From positions 1-58,350 of the forward strand of contig NZ_JADEXQ010000030.1 in assembly GCF_015207035.1 (NCBI RefSeq): a stretch of DNA of 58,350 nucleotides, written 5' to 3'. Source of the stretch: Romeriopsis navalis LEGE 11480. GTDB lineage: Bacteria; Cyanobacteriota; Cyanobacteriia; Leptolyngbyales; Leptolyngbyaceae. The notes beneath the pieces were generated by a model. The model saw only the letters and a program-made list of their open reading frames with translations, searched no databases and was not told the origin of the DNA. The position numbers were made by a program, and so were the translations under genes. Positions 8,571 to 23,016 of the stretch are shown here, one piece after another (position 1 is the stretch's first letter; every line of letters starts with the position of its first letter).

Positions 8571-11500
8571 TTAGCTGAGTGCACCTAAGGCTTGTAGGGA
8601 TGCTTTTTGAGCTAAAGTTAGTCCAGTCGCACCCTGAATATTCATTGATTCATAAAGACGTGGTGCGCGCATTACTTGTAGACATTTGCCGGTTTGTGTA
8701 TCCCATAGTCTAACGGTTTCGTCATAACTTGCAGTTGCAAGAATTTCGCCATCGGGACTGAAGGCAACAGAGCCAATTGTATTCTTATGTCCTGTTAACG
8801 TGAAGACACAATCCAAGGTTTCTGAATCCCAAATTTTGGCTGTTTTGTCGAAACTACCGCTGGCAAAAAGGTGATTTTTAGGTGAGAAAGCGACAGTCCA
8901 GCTGGGTTTACTATGTGCCTGAAAAGTTTTGATTAATTGGTAGGTTTGCAGATTCCATACGTGTAATCGCCCTTGCGTATCGCTGCATACCATAGTGTTG
9001 CCGTCAGAGCTTAAAGCAAGTTGATAGATTTCGCCATCACCCATCGATAAGGTTCTGAGACACTCACCGGTTTGATAATCCCAAAGTTTTACAGTGGTAT
9101 CGAGGCTACTAGTGATCAGCAATTTCCCATCTGGCGTAAAGATATTGGCACAAACGAAGAACTGATGTCCTTCTAGCACTCTCGTACAAAGCCCCTTTTC
9201 CCAATCCCACAATCGCGTTGTCATATCAAAGCTACTACTGGCAAGACAAGTTCCATCGGGACTAAAAGATAGCTGCCATACCTGGTCTTTATGCGCGCTG
9301 AGGATGCGAATTTGCTGCTCCGTTTCAAAATTCCAAAGGTAAATCTTGGAGTGAGCACCAGCTACGAGAATTGGTTTGTTGGGGTGAAAACTCACAAATT
9401 GAATATCAAAGGCTGCGCCTTTGAGTATTTTGATACATTCGCCAGTGGCAATATCCCAAATTCGGACAACTCGCTCCCCCCCAGCACTTGCGAGATATTT
9501 ACCGGTGGGATGAAATGCCGTTGACCAGTTCCCTTGGGTATATCCCTTTAAAGTCTTTAAGCTGTGGCCAGAATTAATATCCCATAGGCGTACAATTTGA
9601 TCTTCGCTGCCGCATGCTAATAAGGGATGGCACGGATTAAACGCGACGCTCAAGACTCTTGCCGCAAAGTCGTGAAATGTCTTTAAACACTGTCCTGTTT
9701 GCATGCTCCAAATCCTGACCGTTTGGTCATCGCTGGCGCTGGCAATGAGTTGATCCTCAGGGCTGATCGCAACGGACCACAGGAGATTTTGGTGTCCCTT
9801 TAATGTCTGGATACATTTGTCAGTTTTGAGATCCCAAAGTTTAATTGTGCGATCAAGGCTGCCACTTACGAGGGTTTGTTGGTCGGAGCTCAATGCGAGA
9901 GTAGAGACTCCAGCTTGATGGCCTGTAAGGGTTTTAATACAATCACCCGTGGTTAAATCCCAAAATTGAATGGTACTTGCACTTGTGCTACTGCTAATCA
10001 GTTGCTGATCATTATGTGTAAATAAAACCGCACGCATCCGATTCTCTACATTATTTGGGTCCTGCAAAACACGTAAGCAATCACCAGTTTCAACATCCCA
10101 AAGGCGAATTGTAAAATCCTCACAACCACTTGCCAGCTTTTCCCCATCCGCACTCCAGGCCAACCCCCATGTTCGCTGTGTATGCCCCTGGAGTGTTTTG
10201 ATCAGGTGTCCAGTCTGAGCATTCCAAATTTTTATCAGGTAGTCATCCCCACCACTGACCAGCTTCTGACCGTCGGGGCTAAATCCGACAAACCATGTCC
10301 ATCCTTCATGGGCCGACCACGACTGCAAACGTTGACCAGTCTCAACTTGCCAGAGATGAATTTCACCGTTGGCATCACCACCAACCAGGGTATTGCCATC
10401 GGGGCTGAAGGTGACTGAACGAAGTCCGCTAAAGAATTCACTAAAAACCGATTTACTCAAATCGGTATTGGCTAAGTTGACATGATGGAGTTTTTGAGCC
10501 GGTAAATATGCCTGCCAAATTGGTAAATTAGAAAAGTCCTGGCCGGATAGATCAATCTGCAACTCACACATCATGTTGAGGAGATTCCCACCAGCATAAC
10601 CAACAGTTTCGATGGGTTGTGCACGAAGTTCGTCTAGTAGCTTTTGCAGTTGGTGTTTGAAGTTGTTGAGTTGTCCACTATCACGAATGAGTTTGTCGAG
10701 TAGTGGTTGGGAGATTAAACGGATTTGTGATTCTCTTACGAAATCCTGGGCTTGGGCTTTGATCAGCGCATAGCGACTGAGAAAACCTAATTCTTGCTGT
10801 TCAAACCCCGCATAGAACTGTGCGATCAGTCTTTCAGTCATATATTCCATAACGACTGGCTGTTGGCAGAATTGTCCCTTCTTTGCTTCGATTAGAGAGC
10901 GTCCGTGGAGTGATTCGATCGCTTCGAGTAATGTCCGCTGGGAGACTTTTGGAATAATGTCCTCATGCAGTTCGGATAAGGTTGTCCAGTCGCGGTTAAT
11001 TGCGAGCCAATACATGACTTTTTGTTCGAGTTCGGAGAGGCGCTGGAACTGTTGTTCAAGTAAGTCCCAGATGTTCCCAAAGACTAAAACACCTTGATTG
11101 AGGAATTCTGAAATGTCTCCAGAGAATAGATTACGGATTGTCGCACTGACAATATTTAGTGCCAGCGGGTTACCAGAGTAATGTTCGATCAGGCTCGGAG
11201 CATGCCGTGCTAAATCAACTAAGCCCTTTCCCTGAAGGAGCTTTTGGCCTGTGTTTGCTGGCAGTCCGTTGAGCAAGAGAGAGCGTACAGTTGTGCTGTT
11301 TCCCTCACGGGTTTGTAGCCCGATCGGTTGTTCACGACTGGTAAGGATTAAGCTGCTCTGATGTGCTTCATTGGCAATACTTCGCAGCATTTGGCCGTAT
11401 CCTTCGTATCCCAGGCGATAGTTGCCGCTGTGATCTCCGCTTTGCAGAATTGACTCCGCGTTATCGAGAATTAACAGACAGCGATGTTGACGCAGGTTAG

Positions 11501-12176
11501 TGATTAAAGCGGCAATCTGTGCATCGATATTTGGTGGGAGGTTCGCTGTTTGTTGGTCCGTGAGAAAAAGCAACAGATCCCGTAATAAATCCGCAAATGG
11601 GGGGGCATTGCGTAGCGATCGCCAAAAGACAGATTCAAATTCTCCTTGCAGATTTTGGGCGACTTGGGCTGTGAGCGCAGTTTTGCCAATGCCGCCCATT
11701 CCGACAATAGTAATAAGTTTACAGTTATCTTGAGTAATCCAATTCTCTACGGTTGTAAACTCCTCAGTCCGACCATAAATGCTCGGTAGTTCGATTACTT
11801 CTCCCCAGTCTTGGCGCCGTAGTGGGTTAATGCGCTTTGGTGTAGGTTGGATTTTCTGGGTGTTTACTGGTGTCTCGGTTTGAGTGGCCAGTAGCGGTTG
11901 CTTAGAGGTGCTGCTTTGATCGAATCGGTTAGCATATCGTCGTAAAGTTGAACGGAAGCTGGATTTGCTGACTGGCTCCCCGAGCGCTTCGGAGAGCATG
12001 CGCCAGATTTGTTGTCCTACATGTCTGATGTAGCAAGGTTCATAACCTGTTATGTCGGCGATTTGCGAGTAAGACTTACCGTCCCAGGCATGACAGAGTA
12101 TGAGTTCCTGTAGATCTGTCAAATTAACAGGCGAAATGCTGGCCTCAATGAGACCAAGAGCTTTCTCAATGTCCAT
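8571..12176 (-). CDS. STAND NTPase: HTH, NB-ARC and 14 WD40 repeats
   Basis: This 1201-residue protein has three parts. Residues 1-85 form a helix-turn-helix-like domain (L-I-L-C-H-A-W-D-G-K-S-Y-S-Q-I-A-D-I-T-G) of the kind found at the N-terminus of cyanobacterial vMAP-like proteins. Residues about 135-430 are an NB-ARC ATPase with Walker A G-M-G-G-I-G-K-T at 159-166 and Walker B L-L-I-L-D-N-A. From about residue 585 I count fourteen WD40 units, enough for two seven-bladed propellers. STAND proteins are usually closed sensors that oligomerise on ligand binding. There is no catalytic effector domain, so a separate effector or DNA binding would be needed. It is divergent from the amidase island. 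Confidence 0.9.
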   Translation of the reverse strand: MDIEKALGLIEASISPVNLTDLQELILCHAWDGKSYSQIADITGYEPCYIRHVGQQIWRMLSEALGEPVSKSSFRSTLRRYANRFDQSSTSKQPLLATQTETPVNTQKIQPTPKRINPLRRQDWGEVIELPSIYGRTEEFTTVENWITQDNCKLITIVGMGGIGKTALTAQVAQNLQGEFESVFWRSLRNAPPFADLLRDLLLFLTDQQTANLPPNIDAQIAALITNLRQHRCLLILDNAESILQSGDHSGNYRLGYEGYGQMLRSIANEAHQSSLILTSREQPIGLQTREGNSTTVRSLLLNGLPANTGQKLLQGKGLVDLARHAPSLIEHYSGNPLALNIVSATIRNLFSGDISEFLNQGVLVFGNIWDLLEQQFQRLSELEQKVMYWLAINRDWTTLSELHEDIIPKVSQRTLLEAIESLHGRSLIEAKKGQFCQQPVVMEYMTERLIAQFYAGFEQQELGFLSRYALIKAQAQDFVRESQIRLISQPLLDKLIRDSGQLNNFKHQLQKLLDELRAQPIETVGYAGGNLLNMMCELQIDLSGQDFSNLPIWQAYLPAQKLHHVNLANTDLSKSVFSEFFSGLRSVTFSPDGNTLVGGDANGEIHLWQVETGQRLQSWSAHEGWTWFVGFSPDGQKLVSGGDDYLIKIWNAQTGHLIKTLQGHTQRTWGLAWSADGEKLASGCEDFTIRLWDVETGDCLRVLQDPNNVENRMRAVLFTHNDQQLISSSTSASTIQFWDLTTGDCIKTLTGHQAGVSTLALSSDQQTLVSGSLDRTIKLWDLKTDKCIQTLKGHQNLLWSVAISPEDQLIASASDDQTVRIWSMQTGQCLKTFHDFAARVLSVAFNPCHPLLACGSEDQIVRLWDINSGHSLKTLKGYTQGNWSTAFHPTGKYLASAGGERVVRIWDIATGECIKILKGAAFDIQFVSFHPNKPILVAGAHSKIYLWNFETEQQIRILSAHKDQVWQLSFSPDGTCLASSSFDMTTRLWDWEKGLCTRVLEGHQFFVCANIFTPDGKLLITSSLDTTVKLWDYQTGECLRTLSMGDGEIYQLALSSDGNTMVCSDTQGRLHVWNLQTYQLIKTFQAHSKPSWTVAFSPKNHLFASGSFDKTAKIWDSETLDCVFTLTGHKNTIGSVAFSPDGEILATASYDETVRLWDTQTGKCLQVMRAPRLYESMNIQGATGLTLAQKASLQALGALS

Positions 12177-12697: not shown

Positions 12698-13615
12698 ATG
12701 TTAATAGTGGGAAATCGAAATAAGGTTAGTTCAGTTATTTTTCTGCTCCTAATTACACTTCCCGTATTAGGTTGCACGCGTGGAAAAGCAAATGCTCTAG
12801 TGCTGGCTGCAAGATCCTTCGAAGTGAATTCGCTGCAAACGATTAATGCTTACGATCAGCTCTTTAGAGAATATAAATCACTCAAAAGAGATACGGAAGA
12901 TGAAGTCTTTCGGAAGTCTTCTAGCGCAATTAGAGAATCCGCGACTAATGAAAAAACCTCGGATTTAAAAAAGAGACTGATTCAAGCTTTAAGTAATAGA
13001 GCCTATGAAATGAAAGCCGGAGAATTTGAAAAAGAATTTGATGATATACGATTAGTATATACCTCTATACGAGATACTTATTCCTCCTTGCCTGATGGGA
13101 GTATTCTTGGTGCTAGATATGTAGTTTGTGGTCGAGGTGTGGTGGCTAAGGCCACTAATCAACTTATTAACTTTGCAAAGCGGCTAGATTCTAGGCCACT
13201 GTATCCTCTATCACTGCAGAAAAAAGTCGCTGAATATAAGAATGCCGTTGTGCAAGATAAAGAGGCGGAAGCAAGGTTGCTGTTTAAAGACATTGCTGCA
13301 TCTATTGCTAGCTATGACAAAAAGCATGAAGAACTGATGCAGTTGACTGTAATAGCCGTGGAAGATGGTGCGAGATTATATGAGTTATTGGAGAATTATA
13401 ATTCTGTATCTGCATCTGAAATACTAAGTTTAGTACAAGAAAATTTGAGTTTTATTGGATCTCTACAGGGTCTTGATACGGGTGCTGCAAAATTACGCTT
13501 AGAAAATATAGAAAGAAAATTTGAAAGTGAACGATATTGGCAAAGGATTAAGGATAAGCCAATCATTGAGCTATCTAAGTGCGATGTTAAGTTAGAAAAC
13601 CTAGAAGGTGCGTAA
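12698..13615 (+). CDS. Lipoprotein of unknown function, helical
   Basis: A hydrophobic signal segment (residues 10-25) ends in a lipobox L-P-V-L-G-C with Cys26, so the mature protein should be lipid-anchored. The remaining 280 residues are charged and rich in Lys, Glu and Leu, with the look of long helices, and contain three further cysteines at most. No family was recognised. The gene is AT-rich. It is the first gene of the rightward cluster; the next gene begins one base after its stop, so the two are probably one operon. Confidence 0.7.
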   Translation: MLIVGNRNKVSSVIFLLLITLPVLGCTRGKANALVLAARSFEVNSLQTINAYDQLFREYKSLKRDTEDEVFRKSSSAIRESATNEKTSDLKKRLIQALSNRAYEMKAGEFEKEFDDIRLVYTSIRDTYSSLPDGSILGARYVVCGRGVVAKATNQLINFAKRLDSRPLYPLSLQKKVAEYKNAVVQDKEAEARLLFKDIAASIASYDKKHEELMQLTVIAVEDGARLYELLENYNSVSASEILSLVQENLSFIGSLQGLDTGAAKLRLENIERKFESERYWQRIKDKPIIELSKCDVKLENLEGA

Positions 13616-13616
13616 G

Positions 13617-13943
13617 ATGCCAAATAGAAGAAACGAGAGTAATGTCGCAGAATCTCGAGATATACAAGTAGTGGATGAATCAGAAATAGCTTTGGGGCAG
13701 TTGTTTGACAAATTTGTTCAGGCTTCTCCTGGGGAGCAATGGGTTTTACAGCCAGCTATTGAAAAAGTTAGCGCAGAATTAGCTGGGGCTCGGTTTCGTC
13801 TGTTTCAAAGTGATGTTCTGGTTAAGGAAACAGATCTCGTCTTATTGAATCAAATTCGTGAAGAGATAGATAAAGCTGCGGATAATCAGACATTAATTAT
13901 GTCTGCCTTGAAATTGGCTGCTTTTTTAGGCGTATTTGCTTGA
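13617..13943 (+). CDS. Small unknown protein coupled to the lipoprotein gene
   Basis: Not recognised. The 108 residues are mostly helical, with a mildly hydrophobic C-terminal segment (S-A-L-K-L-A-A-F-L-G-V-F-A). The ATG at 13617 directly follows the stop of the upstream gene (13613-13615), suggesting translational coupling. A GTG at 13608 is a less likely start. No signal peptide or known motif is seen. Confidence 0.6.
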   Translation: MPNRRNESNVAESRDIQVVDESEIALGQLFDKFVQASPGEQWVLQPAIEKVSAELAGARFRLFQSDVLVKETDLVLLNQIREEIDKAADNQTLIMSALKLAAFLGVFA

Positions 13944-14068: not shown

Positions 14069-14308
14069 ATGATACTCATGCTGATTACTCATTCGAATCA
14101 GTTTTTTGGGCTTCTACTTCTGGTATTCGGAACCTTTTGCTTTGTTGATGATCCGATTAATGCTGTATCACTCTGTAAGTTCGCCCCCACTTATAAAATT
14201 TCATCATTAGATCAGGCTAAATGTTTATTGCGTCAGTCAAAGTTTTTTGGCCAAGTCGGTGAGAATTTGACTAATACCGAAACTAATGAAGAATCAGTAT
14301 CACCGTAG
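14069..14308 (+). CDS. Small putative secreted protein
   Basis: From the ATG at 14069 the protein has 79 residues, starting with a hydrophobic signal-like segment (F-F-G-L-L-L-L-V-F-G-T-F-C-F-V) and continuing with a short domain holding two cysteines (L-C-K-F-A-P-T-Y and A-K-C-L-L-R). An upstream TTG at 14042 is a weaker start. The tail of this frame overlaps the sequence that is duplicated upstream of the second amidase copy. Function unknown. Confidence 0.45.
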   Translation: MILMLITHSNQFFGLLLLVFGTFCFVDDPINAVSLCKFAPTYKISSLDQAKCLLRQSKFFGQVGENLTNTETNEESVSP

Positions 14309-15128
14309 TAAATCACTTGCGGGAGGAATCTAAATCATGGCTTGGCTTAAATTGACGAAGACTGGATTGTATTTGATGAAAAGTGGTTCTAGCTGTTATG
14401 TAAAGAAAGTCGATGTCTCCTCTTCCAATCAAAATCTATCGGAGCTTCGATTGTCTGTTCCATTGGATTGGTTTTCTGGCCGAGATATTCCTGGTTCTAT
14501 GGTGATTGATTTGGAAAGTGATGAGCCAGAAACTTGCCGAATATCTGCTACTCCTTCTGGGCCAATTGAGACGCCTTTAAGCGGCAAAGTGATTATTCTT
14601 GATCCGGGGCAGGGTGAATTGCAGGGTGGAATTAATGATCCAGGAGCTGTCAATGGAGTATTGGGGCGCAATGAACGAGATGAAGTCCGTAAACAGGCTG
14701 ATATTATTAAAGCGAGACTTGAGAAGAAGGGTACAGTCGTCAAAGTTGTTGAAAATAATACTGACAAAAGTTTGACTGAAATTGGTTCAGAAGGCCGTGG
14801 TTCTGATTGCTTTGTTTCATTGCATTTAACTGCTTTCAATCGCAAAGTTCAAGGACATCAGGTTTTTATACATACTCAAGGTACGCCGACTGATGAGAAG
14901 TTGGCTACTTTGATCAATCAAGAATTAGCTAAAGTACTACCGATTAAGGATGCAGGTGTAAAAAGAATGGGATTAGGAGTTCTAAGGGGTGTGCCATTTC
15001 CAGTTCCTGCAGTGCTGACAGAAAGCTTTTTCATTGATTCGGTTCAGGATACAGTGACTCTCGATAGCTGGAATGAATTGGCGGCAAATGCGATTGCTGA
15101 AGGAATTGAGCAGTGTTTTGCAACATAA
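14292..15128 (+). repeat. Duplication unit, copy 1 (leader plus amidase)
   Basis: The 45 bases before the start codon (from AATCAGTATCACCGTAG) and the whole 263-codon gene recur at 15887-16723 with the same length and no indels in the protein. The unit is interrupted by an unrelated amidase gene between the copies. Confidence 0.85.
14337..15128 (+). CDS. Amidase_3-type N-acetylmuramoyl-L-alanine amidase paralogue with substituted zinc ligand
   Basis: Residues 1-80 are an N-terminal domain I do not recognise, without a signal peptide. Residues 83-262 are an Amidase_3 domain, which cleaves the bond between muramic acid and the stem peptide using zinc. Expected ligands are His in D-P-G-H-G, a Glu and a His, plus a catalytic Glu. 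Here the first is Gln92 (D-P-G-Q-G, codon CAG), while Glu113, His163 and Glu229 remain; S-L-H-L-N-A has become S-L-H-L-T-A (Thr165). The paralogue at 15932 has His92 and Asn165. This copy may be inactive or a binding protein. A GGGAGG ribosome site lies 10 bases upstream of the ATG. Confidence 0.85.
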   Translation: MAWLKLTKTGLYLMKSGSSCYVKKVDVSSSNQNLSELRLSVPLDWFSGRDIPGSMVIDLESDEPETCRISATPSGPIETPLSGKVIILDPGQGELQGGINDPGAVNGVLGRNERDEVRKQADIIKARLEKKGTVVKVVENNTDKSLTEIGSEGRGSDCFVSLHLTAFNRKVQGHQVFIHTQGTPTDEKLATLINQELAKVLPIKDAGVKRMGLGVLRGVPFPVPAVLTESFFIDSVQDTVTLDSWNELAANAIAEGIEQCFAT

Positions 15129-15168
15129 GCCCAAAAGAGTGTTAGAAACTTTAATTAGGAGTTGAATT

Positions 15169-15771
15169 ATGGCAAAGTTTCAAATAGCAAATCGTGTTAC
15201 CTATGCGGATCGCCGTGGTTGGGGTGCGGATTCGAAATATCCACGTAGAGGTTATAGGGTTAATCGAAAAGATAGAGAAACGATATTCATACACCATACG
15301 GTTATTGTGGATAACGATGTGACAAAGAATCAATGGGAGACTGAAGCAGAAGTTTTCTCAAAGATGAGGCAACTGCAGATAATTCGTCAAAAAGATCTAG
15401 GTTCGGATGTGCCCTACAACTTTGTGGTTTTCCTAATGAATACTAATCCCGCATCCATTTACGTATGTGAGGGACGCGGAGAAGATCGAACAGGAGCCCA
15501 TACCCGTGGCCATAATACAAAAGGTATTGGTATTGCACTGCAAGGAAACTTCGAGCATATTTTGACTCCTCTGAGTGAATATATTCCCTTGATTTCGTTG
15601 TTCCTTGGCTGGCTAAAATTTGATCCTAATGGGCCTAATTATGGTGGTCCATATGCTCCGATGTCTAATTTAAATGAAATAAGCTATCACCAGAAAGTGA
15701 GTAACACTGCATGTCCAGGTAAACATGTGATCGAGATTATTCCCCGGCTGAAATATATCAATCCAAGATGA
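15169..15771 (+). CDS. PGRP/Amidase_2-type peptidoglycan amidase
   Basis: The 200-residue protein is a single peptidoglycan-recognition-protein/T7-lysozyme-like domain. The zinc ligands seem present: His42/43 in F-I-H-H-T, His174 in S-Y-H-Q and Cys182 in T-A-C-P-G; the eight-residue spacing of the last two matches T7 lysozyme. D-V-P-Y-N-F-V-V and H-N-T-K-G-I-G-I-A-L-Q-G-N-F are typical core strands. The N-terminal R-R-G-W-G-A-D is also PGRP-like. No signal peptide is visible. It lies 40 bp after the first amidase with AGGAG before its ATG. Confidence 0.88.
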   Translation: MAKFQIANRVTYADRRGWGADSKYPRRGYRVNRKDRETIFIHHTVIVDNDVTKNQWETEAEVFSKMRQLQIIRQKDLGSDVPYNFVVFLMNTNPASIYVCEGRGEDRTGAHTRGHNTKGIGIALQGNFEHILTPLSEYIPLISLFLGWLKFDPNGPNYGGPYAPMSNLNEISYHQKVSNTACPGKHVIEIIPRLKYINPR

Positions 15772-15886
15772 TTCTCCTATGCTCTATTTGTCTCCATCTA
15801 GTCGATAAATGGTTTTCATTTATGTTATAGATCCGGTAGGTGTAGTGGAGTTTGATTGCTATTTTCTGAGAGCTTAGGTTCTAAAT

Positions 15887-16723
15887 AATCAGTATCACCG
15901 TAGTAAATAATTTGCGAGAGGCATCTAAATTATGGCTTGGCTTAAATTGACAAAGACTGGATTGTATTTGATGAAAAGTGGTTCTATCTGTTATGTAAAG
16001 AAAGTCGATGTCTCCTCTTCCAACCAAAATCCATCGGAGCTTCGATTATCTGTTCCATTGGATTGGTTTTCTGGTCGAGATATTCCTGGTTCTATGGTGA
16101 TTGATCTGGAGAGTAATGAGCCAGAAACTTGCCCAATATCTGCTACTCCTTCCGGCCCAATCGCAATGCCTTTAAGTGGCAAAGTGATTGTGCTTGATCC
16201 AGGACATGGTGAGTTTCATGGTGGAATTAATGATCCAGGAGCTGTCAATAAAGCATTGGGACGAAATGAACGAGATGAAGTCCGTAAGCAGGCTGATATT
16301 ATTAAAGCGAAACTTGAGGCAAAAGGAGCAATTGTCAAAGTTGTTGAAAACAATACTGGCAAAAGTCTGAGTGCAATTGGTTCAGAAGGTCGTGGTTCTG
16401 ATTGCTTTATTTCATTACATTTGAATGCTTTCAATGAAGAGGTTCAACGCCATGAGGTGTTTGTGCACACTCAGGGTACACCGACTGATGAGAAACTAGC
16501 TGGTTTGATTAGCCAAGCATTAGCTAAAGTACTGCCGATTCCGGATGCGGGTGTAAAAAGAATGGGATTGGGAGTTCTACGGGGAGTTCCGCTTCCAGTT
16601 CCTGCGGTATTGACGGAAGGATTTTTCATTGATTCGGTCAAGGATACAGCAACCCTAGACAACTGGAATACATTAGCTGCAAATGCTATTGCTGAAGGAA
16701 TTGAGAATTTTCTGACGGCGTAA
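15887..16723 (+). repeat. Duplication unit, copy 2 (leader plus amidase)
   Basis: The second copy of the unit at 14292-15128, including the same 45-base leader. Divergence is moderate, with most third positions kept, so the duplication is not very recent but probably occurred in this lineage. Confidence 0.85.
15932..16723 (+). CDS. Amidase_3-type N-acetylmuramoyl-L-alanine amidase, intact active site
   Basis: 263 residues, colinear with the gene at 14337. The Amidase_3 domain has the full set of expected residues: His92 in D-P-G-H-G, Glu113 in N-E-R-D-E, His163 in S-L-H-L-N-A and Glu229 in V-L-T-E-G-F. The N-terminal 80 residues form the same unknown domain (M-A-W-L-K-L-T-K-T-G-L-Y-L-M), which could be a wall-binding, inhibitor or targeting domain. 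There is no Sec or Tat signal, so export would need lysis, a phage-like or contractile apparatus, or an unknown route. Confidence 0.88.
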   Translation: MAWLKLTKTGLYLMKSGSICYVKKVDVSSSNQNPSELRLSVPLDWFSGRDIPGSMVIDLESNEPETCPISATPSGPIAMPLSGKVIVLDPGHGEFHGGINDPGAVNKALGRNERDEVRKQADIIKAKLEAKGAIVKVVENNTGKSLSAIGSEGRGSDCFISLHLNAFNEEVQRHEVFVHTQGTPTDEKLAGLISQALAKVLPIPDAGVKRMGLGVLRGVPLPVPAVLTEGFFIDSVKDTATLDNWNTLAANAIAEGIENFLTA

Positions 16724-16851
16724 AGACCTAAGCCCTGACTGCCTGATACAAGTTATCTCAAGAATCTTATATCAAGGCTGTCTAGAGACTTCTTGAACAT
16801 CTCATATTTGCCCCCATCTACGACTGGAATCATTCATTCATCAGGACAAGC

Positions 16852-16871
16852 ATATCTTTCTTCGAAGATAT
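16852..16871. other. Short perfect hairpin between amidase genes
   Basis: ATATCTT (16852-16858) pairs with AAGATAT (16865-16871) around the loop TCTTCG. No T-run follows. It lies in the 256-bp gap between the second Amidase_3 gene and the fourth amidase gene and may mark a transcript end or processing site. Confidence 0.35.
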
Positions 16872-16979
16872 ATCAGGGCTTTCAGAAGATGTGTCAGGCA
16901 GCCAGGTCTAGTACCTTATTTACCACTTCAACTAATCCCTAAAGCTTTAGAAGTAACACCAAAAAATCTGGATTTTGAC

Positions 16980-17987
16980 ATGTCTATTGAGAAAATCTAT
17001 TTGCACTGGAGTGCAACACCTTATAATTTTGTCAAGGAGGGCGCGTATCATACGATTGTCCAGGGTGATGGCCGCATTTTGAGACTCAGTGGTTATGATC
17101 AATTTACCTTCCATACATTTAGGCGAAACTCAAATGCGGTGGGTATTGCTTGCGCATGCATGGGCGGAATACCGTGGAGAGACTTTCCACCTACACAAAT
17201 CCAGATTGAAAATATGTGCCGTGAAGCTGCGGCACTGGCTAAGCAACTTGGATGGAAACCAGAATCTATTTCAGATCTTCCACATGTGAACCGCGTTTTA
17301 ACGCATGCGGAGGCAGCTGCAAACAGAGATTTTGGAGAGATATCTGCACGTTTATCAACAGGTGTTTCTGATAGTAGTGCTATTCGAAACGGCCTACCCC
17401 ACAATAATTATGGACCCAGTAGATGGCCTGATGGATGGCCGGGTGGAACTGTTGAACGCTGGGATTTTTTTCAAATTAAGGAATCTGACCCTCCAGGCTC
17501 AGGTGGAGACGCGCTGCGCAAAATGATTCGGGAGTTTATGGTTTCACCTACCAAATCACCCTTATCAGAAGCGGAAGAAGTCAAGATTTTATTGAATGGA
17601 GAAAACATTGCAAGTGGTTTCTTGCTAGATGAGAATCGCTACTATGTTAAATTACTTGATCTATTACGCCCTTTTGATATCGAACTTGGAAAAGTAAAGC
17701 CGGGTGAAGATCGATTTATTAACCTTATCTCTAATCAACTAACACCAAAATTTTTAGCTGATTTACCGCTAATTCAGGGATTTCCAACTGTTGACATCTA
17801 CCTTAATCGGCCCATTGACTTGGAAGGTAATCCTGTTGGTGATATTCGCAATCCAATTCGTCCGTTTATTGGTGGTGTCTTAATCGAAAAATCAACTTAT
17901 GTACCTCTTTCCGATTTCTGCAATGAACTTGGAATATCATTCGCAGTTGTTATAGATGATACTCGCTCTATTCGTTTAAGCCGCTAA
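16980..17987 (+). CDS. Amidase_2-like protein with a C-terminal copper-amine-oxidase-N-like domain
   Basis: Residues 1-170 resemble an N-acetylmuramoyl-L-alanine amidase of Amidase_2 type: H-W-S-A-T-P (His9), Y-H-T-I-V-Q-G-D-G, H-T-F-R-R-N-S-N-A-V-G-I-A and L-T-H-A-E-A-A (His109). Residues about 195-335 contain two segments like the copper amine oxidase N-terminal or stalk domain (V-K-I-L-L-N-G-E and S-T-Y-V-P-L-S-D-F), a small module often found on wall-acting proteins. No signal peptide is seen. It is the fourth amidase-like gene in a row and differs in type from the others. Confidence 0.75.
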   Translation: MSIEKIYLHWSATPYNFVKEGAYHTIVQGDGRILRLSGYDQFTFHTFRRNSNAVGIACACMGGIPWRDFPPTQIQIENMCREAAALAKQLGWKPESISDLPHVNRVLTHAEAAANRDFGEISARLSTGVSDSSAIRNGLPHNNYGPSRWPDGWPGGTVERWDFFQIKESDPPGSGGDALRKMIREFMVSPTKSPLSEAEEVKILLNGENIASGFLLDENRYYVKLLDLLRPFDIELGKVKPGEDRFINLISNQLTPKFLADLPLIQGFPTVDIYLNRPIDLEGNPVGDIRNPIRPFIGGVLIEKSTYVPLSDFCNELGISFAVVIDDTRSIRLSR

Positions 17988-18017: not shown

Positions 18018-18757
18018 ATGATGTTTAACAAATACGGAAGTCACTCCTTACTGCTGATGATTTTTCTAATAAATTCATCAATATTTCCTGTTATCACTTA
18101 TGCACAAAATCAAAACGGTGATTACTTTAAAGAAACTCTTCCAGTGTGTCCATCTCAGCCAGAGTAAGTCGTTGGTGACTGGCGTGTAGTTACACCTAGC
18201 GGCTTAAACTGTCGGAGTAGGCCAGAAATTGATATTAACGTTATTAGAGTTTTGTCATTTGGAGACTCTTTTAGTGTGCAAACTTCTGAAGGTCGAAACC
18301 AGCATAATGACCCAACTGAATTAGATAGTTCGGGGAACCCATGGTTTAAGCTAACACCTCGTAAAGGGGTAGTTTGTTTCGTAAGAGCCAATAGTAAATA
18401 TATCAGACCTATCTCTTCTAATTCTTCAAGCTCTCAAGATAGAAATGGCGATTACTTTGTAAAGAATCTACCTTTGATAGATGGCACATATTTCTATAGT
18501 AGATGTAGAGTTATTAGTCCTCAACTGAAGTGTCATAGAAGGCCAGGTGAGCAGTTTAACCCGCTTGCAACATTTGTTAAGGATGAACTAGTTGACGTTC
18601 CAGTTAGTTTTGGTAGAATTGCTAATGTCGATCCAATTTACTTGGATTCACAAAAAAACCTTGGATGATTGTCACAGGTTCTAATGTTAGCAGATTTAGC
18701 AATAATGGGGTCTGCTTTATTCGAGCAAACAAAAAGTTTATTTCCCCATCAGAATAA
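18018..18757 (+). pseudogene. Broken secreted protein with two SH3-like repeats
   Basis: An ATG at 18018 starts a signal peptide (L-L-L-M-I-F-L-I-N-S-S-I-F, cut near T-Y-A-Q), then the frame meets TAA at 18165-18167. The same frame continues open to 18668 with G-D-W-R-V-V-T-P-S-G-L-N-C-R-S-R-P, a bacterial SH3-like start. A second repeat begins near R-N-G-D-Y-F and runs into a TGA after a run of seven A (18652-18658). With one extra A the frame continues as K-P-W-M-I-V to the TAA at 18755-18757 and matches the end of repeat 1 (V-C-F-I-R-A-N). Two disruptions suggest a pseudogene; slippage or sequence error could explain the second. Confidence 0.75.
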
Positions 18758-18926: not shown

Positions 18927-21716
18927 CTACTGAGGAGGATTATATTCGATAAACCAATGTTTCAGAATCTCTGCTTGAAATCGATATTTTCTATTTGAAA
19001 AATCCAAGATTTCTTTCTGAATTAATTCATCCATGACATCTTGCTGTGCATTAACTTCTTGTTCATTTGCAATAGAATATAAAGCTTCTATTGACTTTTC
19101 CATTAACTGATTGCGCTCAATATCGGCAAAGAAAAAACTGCCACTGTTCAACGCCTCAGGAACCGCTGCTTCGATATCGGCTAAAGTTGCCAACTGTCGC
19201 CCCGCGGCTGGCTGCTCATTCTTCAGCGCGACAATTTCGGTACAGAGCAGTTGCACCAAAAATGGATGTCCGTGGGTGAGCTGAATAATCCGATCGACCG
19301 CCCCATCCTCATACCGCAAAGCAAAATCCCGTACCGGATGCTCAATCAGTTGCCGTGCTTCCGCCTCACTCAAATAGCTCAAATGCAGCACTTGCAGATT
19401 AATCAAATACCCCGACCAACGCTGAAACTCCTCTAAGGTATGGGTGCCTGCGAGCAAAACACGAAATCGATCGCGGTGCTGAATCAGATTCCGTAGCATC
19501 CCCAAAACAATATCCGCATCAAATCGTCCCGCATCTAATGCGTGATTCAAGGCTTCAAACTCATCCAACATCAGTAGCGCAGTTGCAGGGGCTATCGCCG
19601 CTTCCACTTGGTCAATCCATTCGTCAAATATGGTAAACGGGTCAACGGCTAACTGTTCCCGCGACAACGGCTGAAGCATGATATTACGATATTGCTGAGC
19701 CGACTGCACAATGCCCTTAGCCAAGTTGTAGAGTAATCCCACATGATCACTCGCCGTACTTGCTGGCCCTTGCAAATCAATAAAAAACGGCACAATCTGA
19801 CTCGGCAACAACCGTCCCAAATGATTGAGCAATGAAGTCTTGCCCATGCGCCGTTGACCGTAGAGCAACAGCGAGGAATGCCGCCGATCGCGCAGCAACC
19901 TTTCAATCTGGGCGCTAATCTCCTGACGTCCCACAAAGATTTCCTGTTGTTGGTTCAGCGGAATACCGACGATATAAGGTGACTCGATTTCTTGACTTGT
20001 TTCCGCTTGTTGATCGAGCGATCGTTGTTCAGCTTCCGCCACTCGCAGCCAAGACTGCCACACAGGCCGAAAGCGCGGTGCATAAACTTGATTACTGCGA
20101 GTTAGTTCCCGCCCCATTCCCTCTAAATTTTCAACAAGATGACTTAGCAGGAGCCTTTGGTTATACAGACTCGATTGATTAAAAATTGCCGCCGCATCAC
20201 GGCTAATGCGATTAAAACTCCGTAAAATATCCGTTGCCGGTCCAGCCAGTTCACCGAGACTGAGCCGCTGATGTAGTTGTCTGATCGCCCGCATATCCTG
20301 ACATTGCTCAAGTTGCCTGGCATCGAGCTCAATCTGCGCATCCCTTGCCGCCCAGCGTTGGTTGCTGCTACTAATATGGGCGATCGCCCATTGCCCCACT
20401 TCTGGCACCTGCTCGCACATCAATACCAAATGCCGATCGAGTCCCCACAACAGCAACCGCTGATGCTCATCCCAGAATGTACTGTGCCACAGCAGATAAT
20501 GCCGTGTGAACCGCTGCGATCGCGTTTGCTGTCCATCCAAGCGATACAGCAACAAATTCCACACCTGCTCAAATGGATAAATCAACATCGGTAACCATTG
20601 GGTCAGCGTCAAGCTAAACAGCAAACAGCCCAACGTCACCGGCAGCGAATACCAGAGGGGAATGTTTGTCACGATACTGACCACGATCGTGTAAATCGCA
20701 CTGCTACCGAGGGTCCCAGCAATTGCTCCAGCTTCGACACCCGCGATCGACACGGTTAAGTTATAAGCCAATGCAAATAGCATGGTGAGGAGCATTGCAT
20801 TACCGCTACCGACGGCGAGTCCCCGAATTTCGCCATTCGCCGGATTTGCAATAAAACTAATAACAGTTGAAATAATAATGCTAGCGGCAACGCTAAAAAA
20901 CAGATTTTTCCACCATTGACCACTATGCTTGCCAAGCATTACACCCAACAAAAGACCGAGAACCACCCCAGTAATTAAACGATTACTAAATGCTGTACCC
21001 ATAGGCAATTGACCCAGGGGCAAACGACTCAATAAATCTCCCAAACCGATCGCGACACTCAGTGTTAGACCACTGCCAAGGATGCCGAGCCCAATGCCGC
21101 CGATGCGTTGTCCCACAACGTTGTGGGGACTATTCGTTTCCACACTCGCCGCAACGCTAGCGGCTAATCCGTTCGGCACACTGGCCATGACGATCGGCAG
21201 TGAAATCGTTGCAATCATAACGCGCAAATCACCCCGCTGAAATGCAAAGCCAGTCCGAAAGGTCATTAAGCTATCTGGACCCAATATTCCAAAAATAACG
21301 CCGCCCAGTAGTCCCCCTACCATTGCCGCAATCCAACTCGCAGCGATGCTAATGACTAATCCGCCGAGCATCCCAGTGCTCAGGCAGGCGGTAAATCCGA
21401 CAAATACTCCAAACAAAATATTTGATATTGGTTGACCGAGAATCGCTAATGATAGGGCGATGCAGAGGCTCACCCCGATCGGTAAGACCAGAAATTCCAG
21501 CCAACAGAGGCGTTTTACCAAGGGATGACGACGCTCGGATGATTGCAACTCCGCCAAACAAAAATTGGGACGGAGCGGAATCTGTGCGAGGGACTGCCGC
21601 CATGCGGTGGGTCGGAGCAACAGCCAAGCGAAAACTTCAACTGTGGCGATTAGCCAGTTGTGTGATAGTTGGCGAGTATGACCGCTGATCGGAGTTTCCG
21701 GTTGACTGGCTGACAT
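18927..21716 (-). CDS. Large membrane protein with C-terminal AAA ATPase domain
   Basis: 929 residues. Residues about 75-395 carry some ten to twelve membrane helices rich in Gly and Ala with internal similarity. Residues about 400-590 are a soluble helical linker. Residues about 600-850 form an AAA/STAND-like ATPase with Walker A G-Q-R-R-M-G-K-T-S (620-628) and Walker B L-L-M-L-D-E-F-E (near 714), like the ATPase_2/Orc1-Cdc6-related proteins. A C-terminal winged-helix-like segment follows. It starts 16 bp after the HTH-ATPase gene at 21733, so the two probably form an operon. Function unknown; a membrane-bound sensor or effector fits the shape. Confidence 0.8.
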   Translation of the reverse strand: MSASQPETPISGHTRQLSHNWLIATVEVFAWLLLRPTAWRQSLAQIPLRPNFCLAELQSSERRHPLVKRLCWLEFLVLPIGVSLCIALSLAILGQPISNILFGVFVGFTACLSTGMLGGLVISIAASWIAAMVGGLLGGVIFGILGPDSLMTFRTGFAFQRGDLRVMIATISLPIVMASVPNGLAASVAASVETNSPHNVVGQRIGGIGLGILGSGLTLSVAIGLGDLLSRLPLGQLPMGTAFSNRLITGVVLGLLLGVMLGKHSGQWWKNLFFSVAASIIISTVISFIANPANGEIRGLAVGSGNAMLLTMLFALAYNLTVSIAGVEAGAIAGTLGSSAIYTIVVSIVTNIPLWYSLPVTLGCLLFSLTLTQWLPMLIYPFEQVWNLLLYRLDGQQTRSQRFTRHYLLWHSTFWDEHQRLLLWGLDRHLVLMCEQVPEVGQWAIAHISSSNQRWAARDAQIELDARQLEQCQDMRAIRQLHQRLSLGELAGPATDILRSFNRISRDAAAIFNQSSLYNQRLLLSHLVENLEGMGRELTRSNQVYAPRFRPVWQSWLRVAEAEQRSLDQQAETSQEIESPYIVGIPLNQQQEIFVGRQEISAQIERLLRDRRHSSLLLYGQRRMGKTSLLNHLGRLLPSQIVPFFIDLQGPASTASDHVGLLYNLAKGIVQSAQQYRNIMLQPLSREQLAVDPFTIFDEWIDQVEAAIAPATALLMLDEFEALNHALDAGRFDADIVLGMLRNLIQHRDRFRVLLAGTHTLEEFQRWSGYLINLQVLHLSYLSEAEARQLIEHPVRDFALRYEDGAVDRIIQLTHGHPFLVQLLCTEIVALKNEQPAAGRQLATLADIEAAVPEALNSGSFFFADIERNQLMEKSIEALYSIANEQEVNAQQDVMDELIQKEILDFSNRKYRFQAEILKHWFIEYNPPQ

Positions 21717-21732
21717 GGGTGGTGAGTCTCCG

Positions 21733-22839
21733 CTATCCCCGTCGATAAAATTCTAGCTGTTGCAATCCTTCTGCTTTCCATATGTCATCGGTTTCCTGAT
21801 TGCGCAAAGCCTCGAGGCGGTACTGACAGAGGATTTGAATCAAAAACGGCCAACATTCACTCTGTTCGATAATCCAGGCAATATCCGCCGCATCAAAGGC
21901 GATCGGCGAACTTCCTATCAGTGCTCTTGCATCGGTTTCGGCCAGCGGCCCCAGGTTCGTGGCATAGCCAAAAATATTAAAAAATGGCGAACTATGTCCG
22001 GTATGACTGGCGAGTTCCGTGGGATGTTCATGGCTGGTCAGAATAAAGCTAAGATTGCCATTGCTATGGTTCGAGGCCAGCGATCTCAAACTCTCCCAAA
22101 ACGTATCGTCTAAATCCGAATCCCGCTTCAGCACTGACCCAATTTCATCCAGCAGCATCACCGTCGGTTGCTGTAAGTGAGTGCTCATCAAATCCATAAA
22201 CTGCTCCAGGTCGCAGTGCTCGATATTCACACCGAGGGCCGATAGTAAATGTTTGATCAAGCCATCACGGGTACCGAGACGCGGGTCTTGCAGGTCCACA
22301 AAAATCCATTTGTATTGCTCCGGGTGAAGCAGTCGATCGCCATTTTGATCACCCCGCAACTGCACCGCTGGGATCAGCGTTAGTTGGGCCAAATGCTTCA
22401 GCAAAGAGGTTTTGCCACTTTTGCGGGGACCGATAATCGCAATATTTTGTAGTGGTCGCCGTTTGAGTAACCCAAAGCTGCGGTTGATTTCGCGCGATCG
22501 ACCAAAAAAGCCCATCGGGTGGGAGATCGGATGACTGGGATTAAATGCAGCGATTTCCCCAGTCAGCGGTGCCGCCGTATTCACCACTGTCTCATCCGTG
22601 GCTAAATCCACGACGCTTTGCCAATCAAGCTCAAGTCGTTCGCAGAGCTCACGGAAGTTCTCGTAGTCGATCGCTTCACCCTTCAGAAATTTCTTCACCG
22701 TTGATAGGGATGGTCCCACATCTGCCGCAAACTGCTTTTGACTCGGGTATCCCCGGCGTTTGACCGCAAGGTTTACTTGAGCAATATGCGGCGGTGCAAC
22801 TTTGAGCGATCGGGCCATGAGCCAGGCAATAGACGGCAT
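21733..22839 (-). CDS. HTH-AAA ATPase (STAND-like)
   Basis: Residues 1-80 hold a cyanobacterial XRE-like DNA-binding segment (F-A-A-D-V-G-P-S-L-S-T-V-K-K-F-L) that commonly precedes ATPase modules. The ATPase follows with Walker A G-P-R-K-S-G-K-T-S near residues 137-145 and Walker B V-M-L-L-D-E-I, a sensor-like L-T-S-H-E, and Orc/Cdc6-like lid. The ATG at 22839 has GGGA upstream; ATG 22818 (M-A-R-S-L-K-V-A-P) matches the usual family start and is an alternative; TTG 22851 is least likely. It heads a two-gene unit with the membrane ATPase. The same kind of ATPase in both genes suggests a heteromeric complex. Confidence 0.8.
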   Translation of the reverse strand: MPSIAWLMARSLKVAPPHIAQVNLAVKRRGYPSQKQFAADVGPSLSTVKKFLKGEAIDYENFRELCERLELDWQSVVDLATDETVVNTAAPLTGEIAAFNPSHPISHPMGFFGRSREINRSFGLLKRRPLQNIAIIGPRKSGKTSLLKHLAQLTLIPAVQLRGDQNGDRLLHPEQYKWIFVDLQDPRLGTRDGLIKHLLSALGVNIEHCDLEQFMDLMSTHLQQPTVMLLDEIGSVLKRDSDLDDTFWESLRSLASNHSNGNLSFILTSHEHPTELASHTGHSSPFFNIFGYATNLGPLAETDARALIGSSPIAFDAADIAWIIEQSECWPFLIQILCQYRLEALRNQETDDIWKAEGLQQLEFYRRG

Positions 22840-23016
22840 TTCTATTCCCAATGTCGCCGAAAATTCACCAAAGTCAACCCGAAGTTAACTAAAAGTCAAC
22901 TGCTGGCCAATCCCGAACTCAACTTTTGGCCCGTTGTAATGAGTATATCGAACGCAAAACGGATAGATGACGACTCGAACATATCACCGCCCGAATAAAT
23001 TCGGCGCCCACAACTC

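Follow-up and report, generated by a model that had tools for sequence, protein, structure and literature searches.

The stretch of Romeriopsis navalis LEGE 11480 DNA analysed here (contig NZ_JADEXQ010000030.1, positions 1 to 58,350, hereafter the window, which means its whole length of 58,350 nucleotides) carries four consecutive amidase-type genes on the plus strand (14337-17987), named A1 to A4 in order along the window. As far as sequence comparison goes, A1 and A3 have been shown to belong to a modular cyanobacterial family in which a domain of about 65 residues is followed by a linker, often proline-rich, and then by a wall hydrolase. This N-domain, as we call the stretch of ~65 residues with which both A1 and A3 begin, is kept constant while the enzyme behind it belongs to any of about seven unrelated types. 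The anatomy, modular leaderless wall hydrolases with a constant N-domain, is the best-supported part of our analysis, and the family is wider than the four genes of the window. What is new here is the N-domain and its partners, not the amidase chemistry; no paper on the domain was found in the open-licence PMC literature searched, and it has apparently not been described before.

The N-domain occupies about residues 1-65 of A1 (14337-14531, plus strand; profile match 14337-14525, E 1.9e-25) and the same part of A3 (15932-16126, plus strand, also by profile match). An earlier annotation of this DNA, hereafter the original prediction, had proposed a common N-terminal domain of about 80 residues; such a domain does exist, somewhat shorter, on A1 and A3 but not on A2 and A4. 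It has no match in Pfam, NCBIfam or PHROG, and four of its residues (W3, L13, M14 and W45) are invariant across 73 proteins. The AlphaFold2 model of the A3 domain, built from a 44-row alignment with a predicted local distance difference test (pLDDT) score of 90.8 and a predicted template-modelling score of 0.78, shows a small fold rich in strands, with a single short helix (whole A3 folded from its single sequence gave a pLDDT of 35 and is unusable). No convincing relatives of this predicted fold were found, the best E-values with Foldseek being 0.9 in the PDB and 0.3 in BFVD, with a VIA Z of 4.2, and the profile, run against PDB sequences, gave only weak matches (best 0.0081).

A first profile found the N-domain in 11 of 97 genomes, one of them that of the window, and a wider one found it in 78 of 388 Cyanobacteriia genomes spread over 26 of 160 genera, with up to four copies per genome; in a sample of the phylum it was present in 4 of 140 genomes, all four within Cyanobacteriia. 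Leptolyngbya boryana NIES-2135 and Leptolyngbya sp. NIES-3755 are named carriers on plasmids, and the 71 titled loci add Leptolyngbya sp. PCC 7375, Nodosilinea nodulosa PCC 7104, Phormidesmis and Halomicronema. One match each was found in two Leptolyngbya plasmids that were viewed and in genomes G011, G441 and G452 (G, g, f, L and C denote our handles for genomes, genera, families, loci and contigs), and the 78 carriers include no member of the sample's family f7.

Partners of the domain were counted over 73 non-redundant proteins, clustered from 174 complete N-domain open reading frames (ORFs) taken from loci many of which overlap; frames cut by contig ends, shorter than 110 residues, with masked residues or with no start codon at the domain were left out, Pfam matches were accepted at E<=0.01, and one member can match several families. 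The commonest partner is Phage_lysozyme (GH24), in 38 of the 73. Peptidases of the M15 type come as Peptidase_M15_3 (14) and M15_2 (10), amidases as Amidase_3 (5) and Amidase_2 (4), and M23 and PG_binding_1 were each matched once; the matches to Peptidase_M74 (6, best 0.0012), GH19 (3, best 0.0015) and Pro_Al_protease (1) are weak. In L110 no Pfam partner was matched, and the partner in L125 looks SH3-type by eye. There are also giant N-domain proteins of 893-987 residues (L108, L109 and L184), and the L108 and L109 frames each hold two N-domains.

The absence of leaders was judged by the highest 12-residue Kyte-Doolittle mean within the first 45 residues, which is a measure of hydropathy and not SignalP. 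Across 72 N-domain ORFs this value does not exceed 1.28, versus 2.13-3.07 in leader-bearing controls (the window genome's 607-residue Amidase_3 ORF, with a leader by eye, at 2.13, and the lipoprotein encoded upstream of A1 at 3.07). By the same measure no signal peptide or membrane anchor was found in A1 (0.57), A2 (-0.03), A3 (1.02) or A4 (0.27), in agreement with the original prediction that none would have a visible Sec or Tat signal. Enzymes of the AmiC type are exported and have targeting domains, AMIN for example. A3 has the catalytic domain of these AmiC/CwlD-type cellular Amidase_3 enzymes, but neither an AMIN domain (Pfam) nor a signal peptide (hydropathy) was seen in A1 or A3, and only Amidase families were matched by Pfam in A1-A4. 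By these features the four do not look like ordinary AmiC-type wall-maintenance enzymes, a point on which the original prediction was right.

The four genes are of the types that had been read from their motifs. A1 (14337-15128) and A3 (15932-16723), both of 263 residues and on the plus strand, as are the other two, carry Amidase_3 behind the N-domain (Pfam 2.3e-23 and 9.6e-24). A2 (15169-15771, 200 residues) is a PGRP (peptidoglycan recognition protein)/Amidase_2-type amidase without the N-domain, matched by PHROG, by solved animal PGRPs among PDB sequences (best 4.8e-6) and by Pfam Amidase_2 at 2.5e-5 and 25.1 bits, which is 0.9 bits below the 26-bit cut-off. A4 (16980-17987, 335 residues) consists of an Amidase_2 domain (Pfam 1.5e-7) and a C-terminal tail, for which a copper-amine-oxidase-N-like module had been suggested; the tail (17559-17984) gave no Pfam match at E<=0.1, and this suggestion was not confirmed. 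A3 also matches the CwlD model (5.8e-12, below the model's cut-off) and solved LytH (4.4e-7). Its full-length relatives on three Leptolyngbya plasmids are 51-52% identical to it, and its closest relative, in G495, is 72% identical by alignment. A4 has relatives in 5 of 97 genomes if that of the window is counted, and the one in G346 is 65% identical to it across residues 1-214. Outside the N-domain family, two of the Amidase_3 domains that match A3 best are encoded in very long frames, of 1986 residues in G195 (L036:2998-7899) and 1706 in G045; the former reads by eye as subtilase, LysM-like, Amidase_3, SH3 and M23-like parts. A promoter search was uninformative (19 promoter-like sites versus 18.8 expected from shuffles).

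A1 and A3 are identical at 222 of 263 residues (84%), and the 5' part of the A1 duplication unit (14289-14588, plus strand) is 92% identical to that of A3 (15884-16183, plus strand). Within the genes, the DNA of the first 221 bases is 95.5% identical and that of the remainder 82.2%, a contrast reached by 3 of 5000 codon permutations. Since the break falls at residue 74, directly after the N-domain, it suggests that the N-domain half was exchanged or homogenised as one unit. Pairwise non-synonymous and synonymous divergence (dN and dS) are 0.088 and 0.434, giving a dN/dS of 0.20; when G495 serves as outgroup, A1 has 12 changes of its own and A3 has 8. In A1, alignment reveals the loss of a zinc-ligand histidine (DPGH to DPGQ) together with HLN to HLT and HEV to HQV, the zinc-ligand and catalytic roles of these residues being presumed from what is known of the family. 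A3 keeps the zinc ligands and the catalytic glutamate in the same alignment, DPGH is likewise kept in four other aligned relatives, and G118 has this histidine in a different context. With its first zinc ligand changed from histidine to glutamine, A1 is probably a pseudoenzyme, and because of these motif losses three rather than four of the genes probably encode active amidases. A second N-domain pseudo-amidase was noticed in G584 (L126:7117-7863), where the histidine and further Amidase_3 motifs have been lost, apparently independently of A1.

Elsewhere the family shows both stable inheritance and clustering. In 13 loci from 10 genera, all of them in family f23, a divergent gene that is homologous between the loci lies 59-578 bp away from the GH24 form; it has an HxxEH motif and looks by eye like an M16-type peptidase. 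No other called ORF separates the two in 11 of these loci, and a single one does in the other 2. Such synteny argues that the arrangement of the GH24 form is kept vertically and is chromosomal. At least 19 of the 78 carrier genomes, counted by eye, contain a pair of N-domains that are fused or no more than about 2.1 kb apart. Whether genes of this kind would prove scattered or clustered in other genomes had been put forward as a check, and they cluster in G116, G495, G346, G465 and G601. The G116 cluster pairs an M74-like protein (by eye) with an Amidase_2 protein, both with the N-domain, and in G495 a glucosaminidase-Amidase_2 protein and a PG_binding_1 protein (a weak match; M74-like by eye), both without it, precede the closest A3 relative. 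The neighbourhood of the window itself comes back in genus g58, as a divergent STAND gene, leaderless N-domain hydrolases and an A4 homologue, so that this arrangement recurs in a second family. The g58 order is a divergent NB-ARC/WD40 STAND gene, N-domain-M15, N-domain-GH19 (weak), a BNR-like protein, the A4 homologue, a 121-residue protein and a lipase-like protein (by eye). It is whole in G465; G601 has no called ORF for the 121-residue protein and a short STAND frame (601 residues). In G346 the A4 homologue is split by a transposase-like gene (L100:10059-12384), uninterrupted copies of 340 residues being present in G465 and G601, and in G282, cut by a contig end, the STAND gene and N-domain-GH19 alone are visible.

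Parts of the set are common to phages, and the N-domain, as far as searched, is not. A1-A4 all match PHROG families, mostly endolysins, and the amidase domain of A4 matches phrog_2588 at 6.6e-51. A4 matched 98 phage records, nearly all cyanophages, with 41-44% identity over 55-62% of A4 in the best 15, and in two regions viewed of T4-like cyanophages the A4-type gene lies between the gp26 and gp5 baseplate genes. These phrog_2588 proteins share the amidase domain with A4, which differs in being a separate protein of 335 residues with another C-terminal tail. Phage Amidase_3 endolysins align to the catalytic part of A3 but not to its N-domain (best 20 matches, the two longest beginning at residue 41). 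The N-domain of the GH24 type, used as query, found nothing in 50,697 phage records or in 72,556 plasmid records, negatives that cover close relatives only, since the A3 protein did find three Leptolyngbya plasmids in the same 72,556 records. An exact short-peptide screen of IMG/VR, which could miss distant forms, gave no N-domain relative either. Among plasmids A2 matched nothing, among phages it gave a single weak match (0.001), and A4 matched three plasmid records of other bacteria by its amidase part only.

We give about an even chance to the reading that the locus is the cyanobacterium's own set of leaderless endolysin-type peptidoglycan hydrolases, which would stay cytoplasmic until the membrane is breached. 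A cellular lysis role is suggested by the lack of leaders together with the endolysin-type classes and the several bond specificities side by side; the route, trigger and target that we infer are as follows. The enzymes would be folded and kept in the cytoplasm, away from their substrate, and would act once the membrane has been opened, either when the cell lyses itself, as part of a programme or under stress, or when the contents of lysed cells reach neighbours. Several bond specificities together might dismantle the sacculus faster than one enzyme. The N-domain could be a common adaptor, the simplest case, by analogy, being one that attaches to the wall or to a carrier used in common; A1, an apparently dead copy that retains it, might sit at the binding site of the active enzyme and thereby modulate it, and the divergent STAND ATPase may be a switch for the cluster. 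Many phage endolysins of Gram-negative hosts have an N-terminal binding domain, and phage endolysins in general (GH24, Amidase_2, Amidase_3 and M15) resemble the present family in being leaderless and in combining one catalytic domain with a small extra one. Unlike them, the N-domain family is found on chromosomes and plasmids, one of its forms is syntenic, and the N-domain was not found in the phage collections searched.

Several observations weigh against this lysis reading. Wall binding by the N-domain is proposed by analogy, A4 is devoid of the domain, and no relatives of A2 were found beyond the window genome itself in the 97 genomes searched. No holin family was matched among the neighbours scanned with PHROG, and no holin-like gene was recognised. 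The dN/dS of 0.20 is no proof of constraint on A1 itself, since it is pairwise and A1 has more unique changes than A3. Adjacency of a STAND gene was rejected as a general rule and stays suggestive: it holds in 6 of 111 loci (those of the window, of four genomes of the single genus g58 and of a Pseudanabaenales bin; 115 loci were examined, overlapping copies of the same regions included, and 4 had no called N-domain gene). Finally, leaderless wall enzymes need not mean lysis, since TftA, which has an N-terminal Amidase_3, shapes filaments.

This last point leads to a serious rival, albeit one that we consider unlikely, namely that these are TftA-like enzymes of cell-shape or filament remodelling that reach the wall by a route invisible in sequence. 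TftA of Nostoc is reported to be a hormogonium morphogene that combines Amidase_3, at its N-terminus, with a glucosaminidase, shapes filament tips and has substituted active-site residues (PMC10710843). The window genome also holds another Amidase_3 ORF (448 residues; L004, contig C131) that has no leader-like start and begins directly with the catalytic domain, and which is TftA-like by layout alone. However, although TftA of Nostoc punctiforme (NF050040) and A3 are both cyanobacterial Amidase_3 proteins, TftA alone has the C-terminal glucosaminidase; A1 and A3 score 29 and 31.6 bits against a cut-off of 500 bits and have no glucosaminidase match. Moreover, the commonest partner of the N-domain is GH24, a phage-lysozyme class, and not septal amidases.

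An antibacterial arsenal, in which the N-domain would be a delivery tag and the hydrolases toxins sent into competitors by a secretion machine, strikes us as improbable. Effectors of the type VI secretion system (T6SS) have shared N-terminal markers, e.g. MIX or PAAR-type domains, as delivery tags, and the family resembles T6SS peptidoglycan effectors in placing one constant N-terminal module on many wall-lytic C-termini. The g58 cluster adds the lipase-like protein and, in G346, a weak match of the BNR-like protein to Tli3 immunity (0.00061, below cut-off), and a lipoprotein lies upstream in the window, as does an unrelated one in G493. The contractile sheath PF04984, found in 158 of 388 genomes (one match in the window genome, 5.0e-11), is in excess among carriers of the N-domain (49/78 versus 109/310 in non-carriers; odds ratio 3.1, p 1.6e-5, assuming that both searches drew the same 388 genomes). 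However, this excess stems from f23, which has the sheath in 41 of its 58 carriers and for which no non-carriers were available for a within-family test, all 41 f23-labelled rows of the separate sheath search lying among the 78 carriers; outside f23 the figure is 8/20, about the background of 158/388. Cargo of a contractile injection system was accordingly rejected as a general rule. G346, a single contig with its cluster, is not among the PF04984 matches, and VipB of the T6SS was found in 0 of 9 genomes. Cargo of a sheath machine, or of the phage-like export system of the original prediction, is therefore not required, although it may apply in particular strains, the window's included. Unlike T6SS effectors, finally, the family has no immunity gene seen conserved between the window and other clusters, and the conserved synteny in f23 is unlike mobile effectors. 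From the sequences a role in lysis or antagonism is possible; the overall interpretation in the original prediction holds up for unusual leaderless enzymes that cluster elsewhere too, but its export cargo is not supported as a requirement and its role for the lipoprotein is unproven.

It is also conceivable, if doubtful, that the N-domain is a new Sec/Tat-independent address tag that would lead almost any peptidoglycan hydrolase to the wall or the outside via a carrier, with the dead A1 and the NLR-like STAND protein as built-in control over the timing of wall cutting. That these are domesticated lysis enzymes of phages or tailocins, left over from past prophages and with no role in the cell today, is very improbable, because, despite the PHROG endolysin matches of A1-A4 and the kinship of the A4 amidase domain with part of T4-like cyanophage proteins, the N-domain was not found in the searched phage records or in IMG/VR, the PHROG scan of seven window proteins (A1-A4, the lipoprotein, the small protein beside it and a 138-residue ORF) revealed no phage structural family, and both the A1/A3 dN/dS and the synteny conserved elsewhere speak against it.

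To our knowledge, little is understood of how wall hydrolases without a signal get to peptidoglycan other than in phage lysis. Stressed Anabaena has been described to form ghost cells without peptidoglycan, with no enzyme named for their formation in the available part of that report (PMC8894136); a link between ghost cells and the N-domain family is speculation. By marking about seven hydrolase types, the N-domain would offer one handle on the questions of wall access and ghost cells, since it can be tagged, used as bait, deleted or swapped, and has members in named strains. Its role, if found, could show how leaderless wall-cutting enzymes reach the wall. If f7 is the Nostoc/Anabaena family, which is a guess, its absence from the carriers may explain why the usual models missed the domain.

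Upstream of the amidases and divergent from them lies the gene for the NB-ARC and WD40 STAND ATPase (8571-12176, minus strand, 1201 residues; Pfam), a possible regulator. Cyanobacterial sigma-like proteins with NB-ARC and WD40 parts have been described (PMC11119718). In the window protein no sigma or helix-turn-helix (HTH) domain was found by Pfam in the first 300 residues, so that a regulatory role is only a guess. The window genome has 11 STAND matches and G346 has 14, and chance may thus have a share in the adjacency; by E-value, the STAND protein of the g58 cluster is not the nearest relative of that in the window.

Between the STAND gene and A1, on the plus strand, come a lipoprotein of 305 residues (12698-13615; lipobox by eye, hydropathy 3.07) and, overlapping and paired with it, a small protein of 111 residues that looks helical by eye (13608-13943). 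The lipoprotein and a protein of about 100 residues form a recurring two-gene unit in several Cyanobacteriia (L223:7661-9000, L224, L225 and L226), found on contig C5 of the window genome and also in G434, G405 and G422, where by eye no amidase was recognised next to any of these copies; in G433 the lipoprotein was found without its small partner. Since the pair recurs away from amidases, its place in a cassette, as once proposed, is unproven, and a role as immunity or holin is unsupported. A similar-looking pair in G493 has no homology to it by BLAST or profile. A possible ORF of 79 residues, with one hydrophobic stretch at its N-terminus, ends 28 bp before A1 (14069-14308, plus strand); in 291 genomes it gave the window's own copy and one weak match, in G289 (E 0.002, two stops), discarded because the DNA reads by eye as part of another gene. 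In a check for a defence system, PADLOC, run on 9 window proteins, matched the three ATPase genes (HEAT-ARM_XIII, PDC-S27, STAND_TPR and mad8) and gave a weak restriction-enzyme match for A4 (0.0006). Just downstream of A4, 18021-18668 probably encoded a secreted SH3-type protein and looks decayed by eye, with a signal-peptide-like start, a stop near 18165, an SH3-like segment and a second repeat. It is followed on the minus strand (18927-22851) by two AAA/STAND-like ATPases in a row, the first of 929 residues with an N-terminal hydrophobic region (by eye) and nSTAND1/AAA_22 matches, the second an AAA protein of 372 residues with a weak HTH match.

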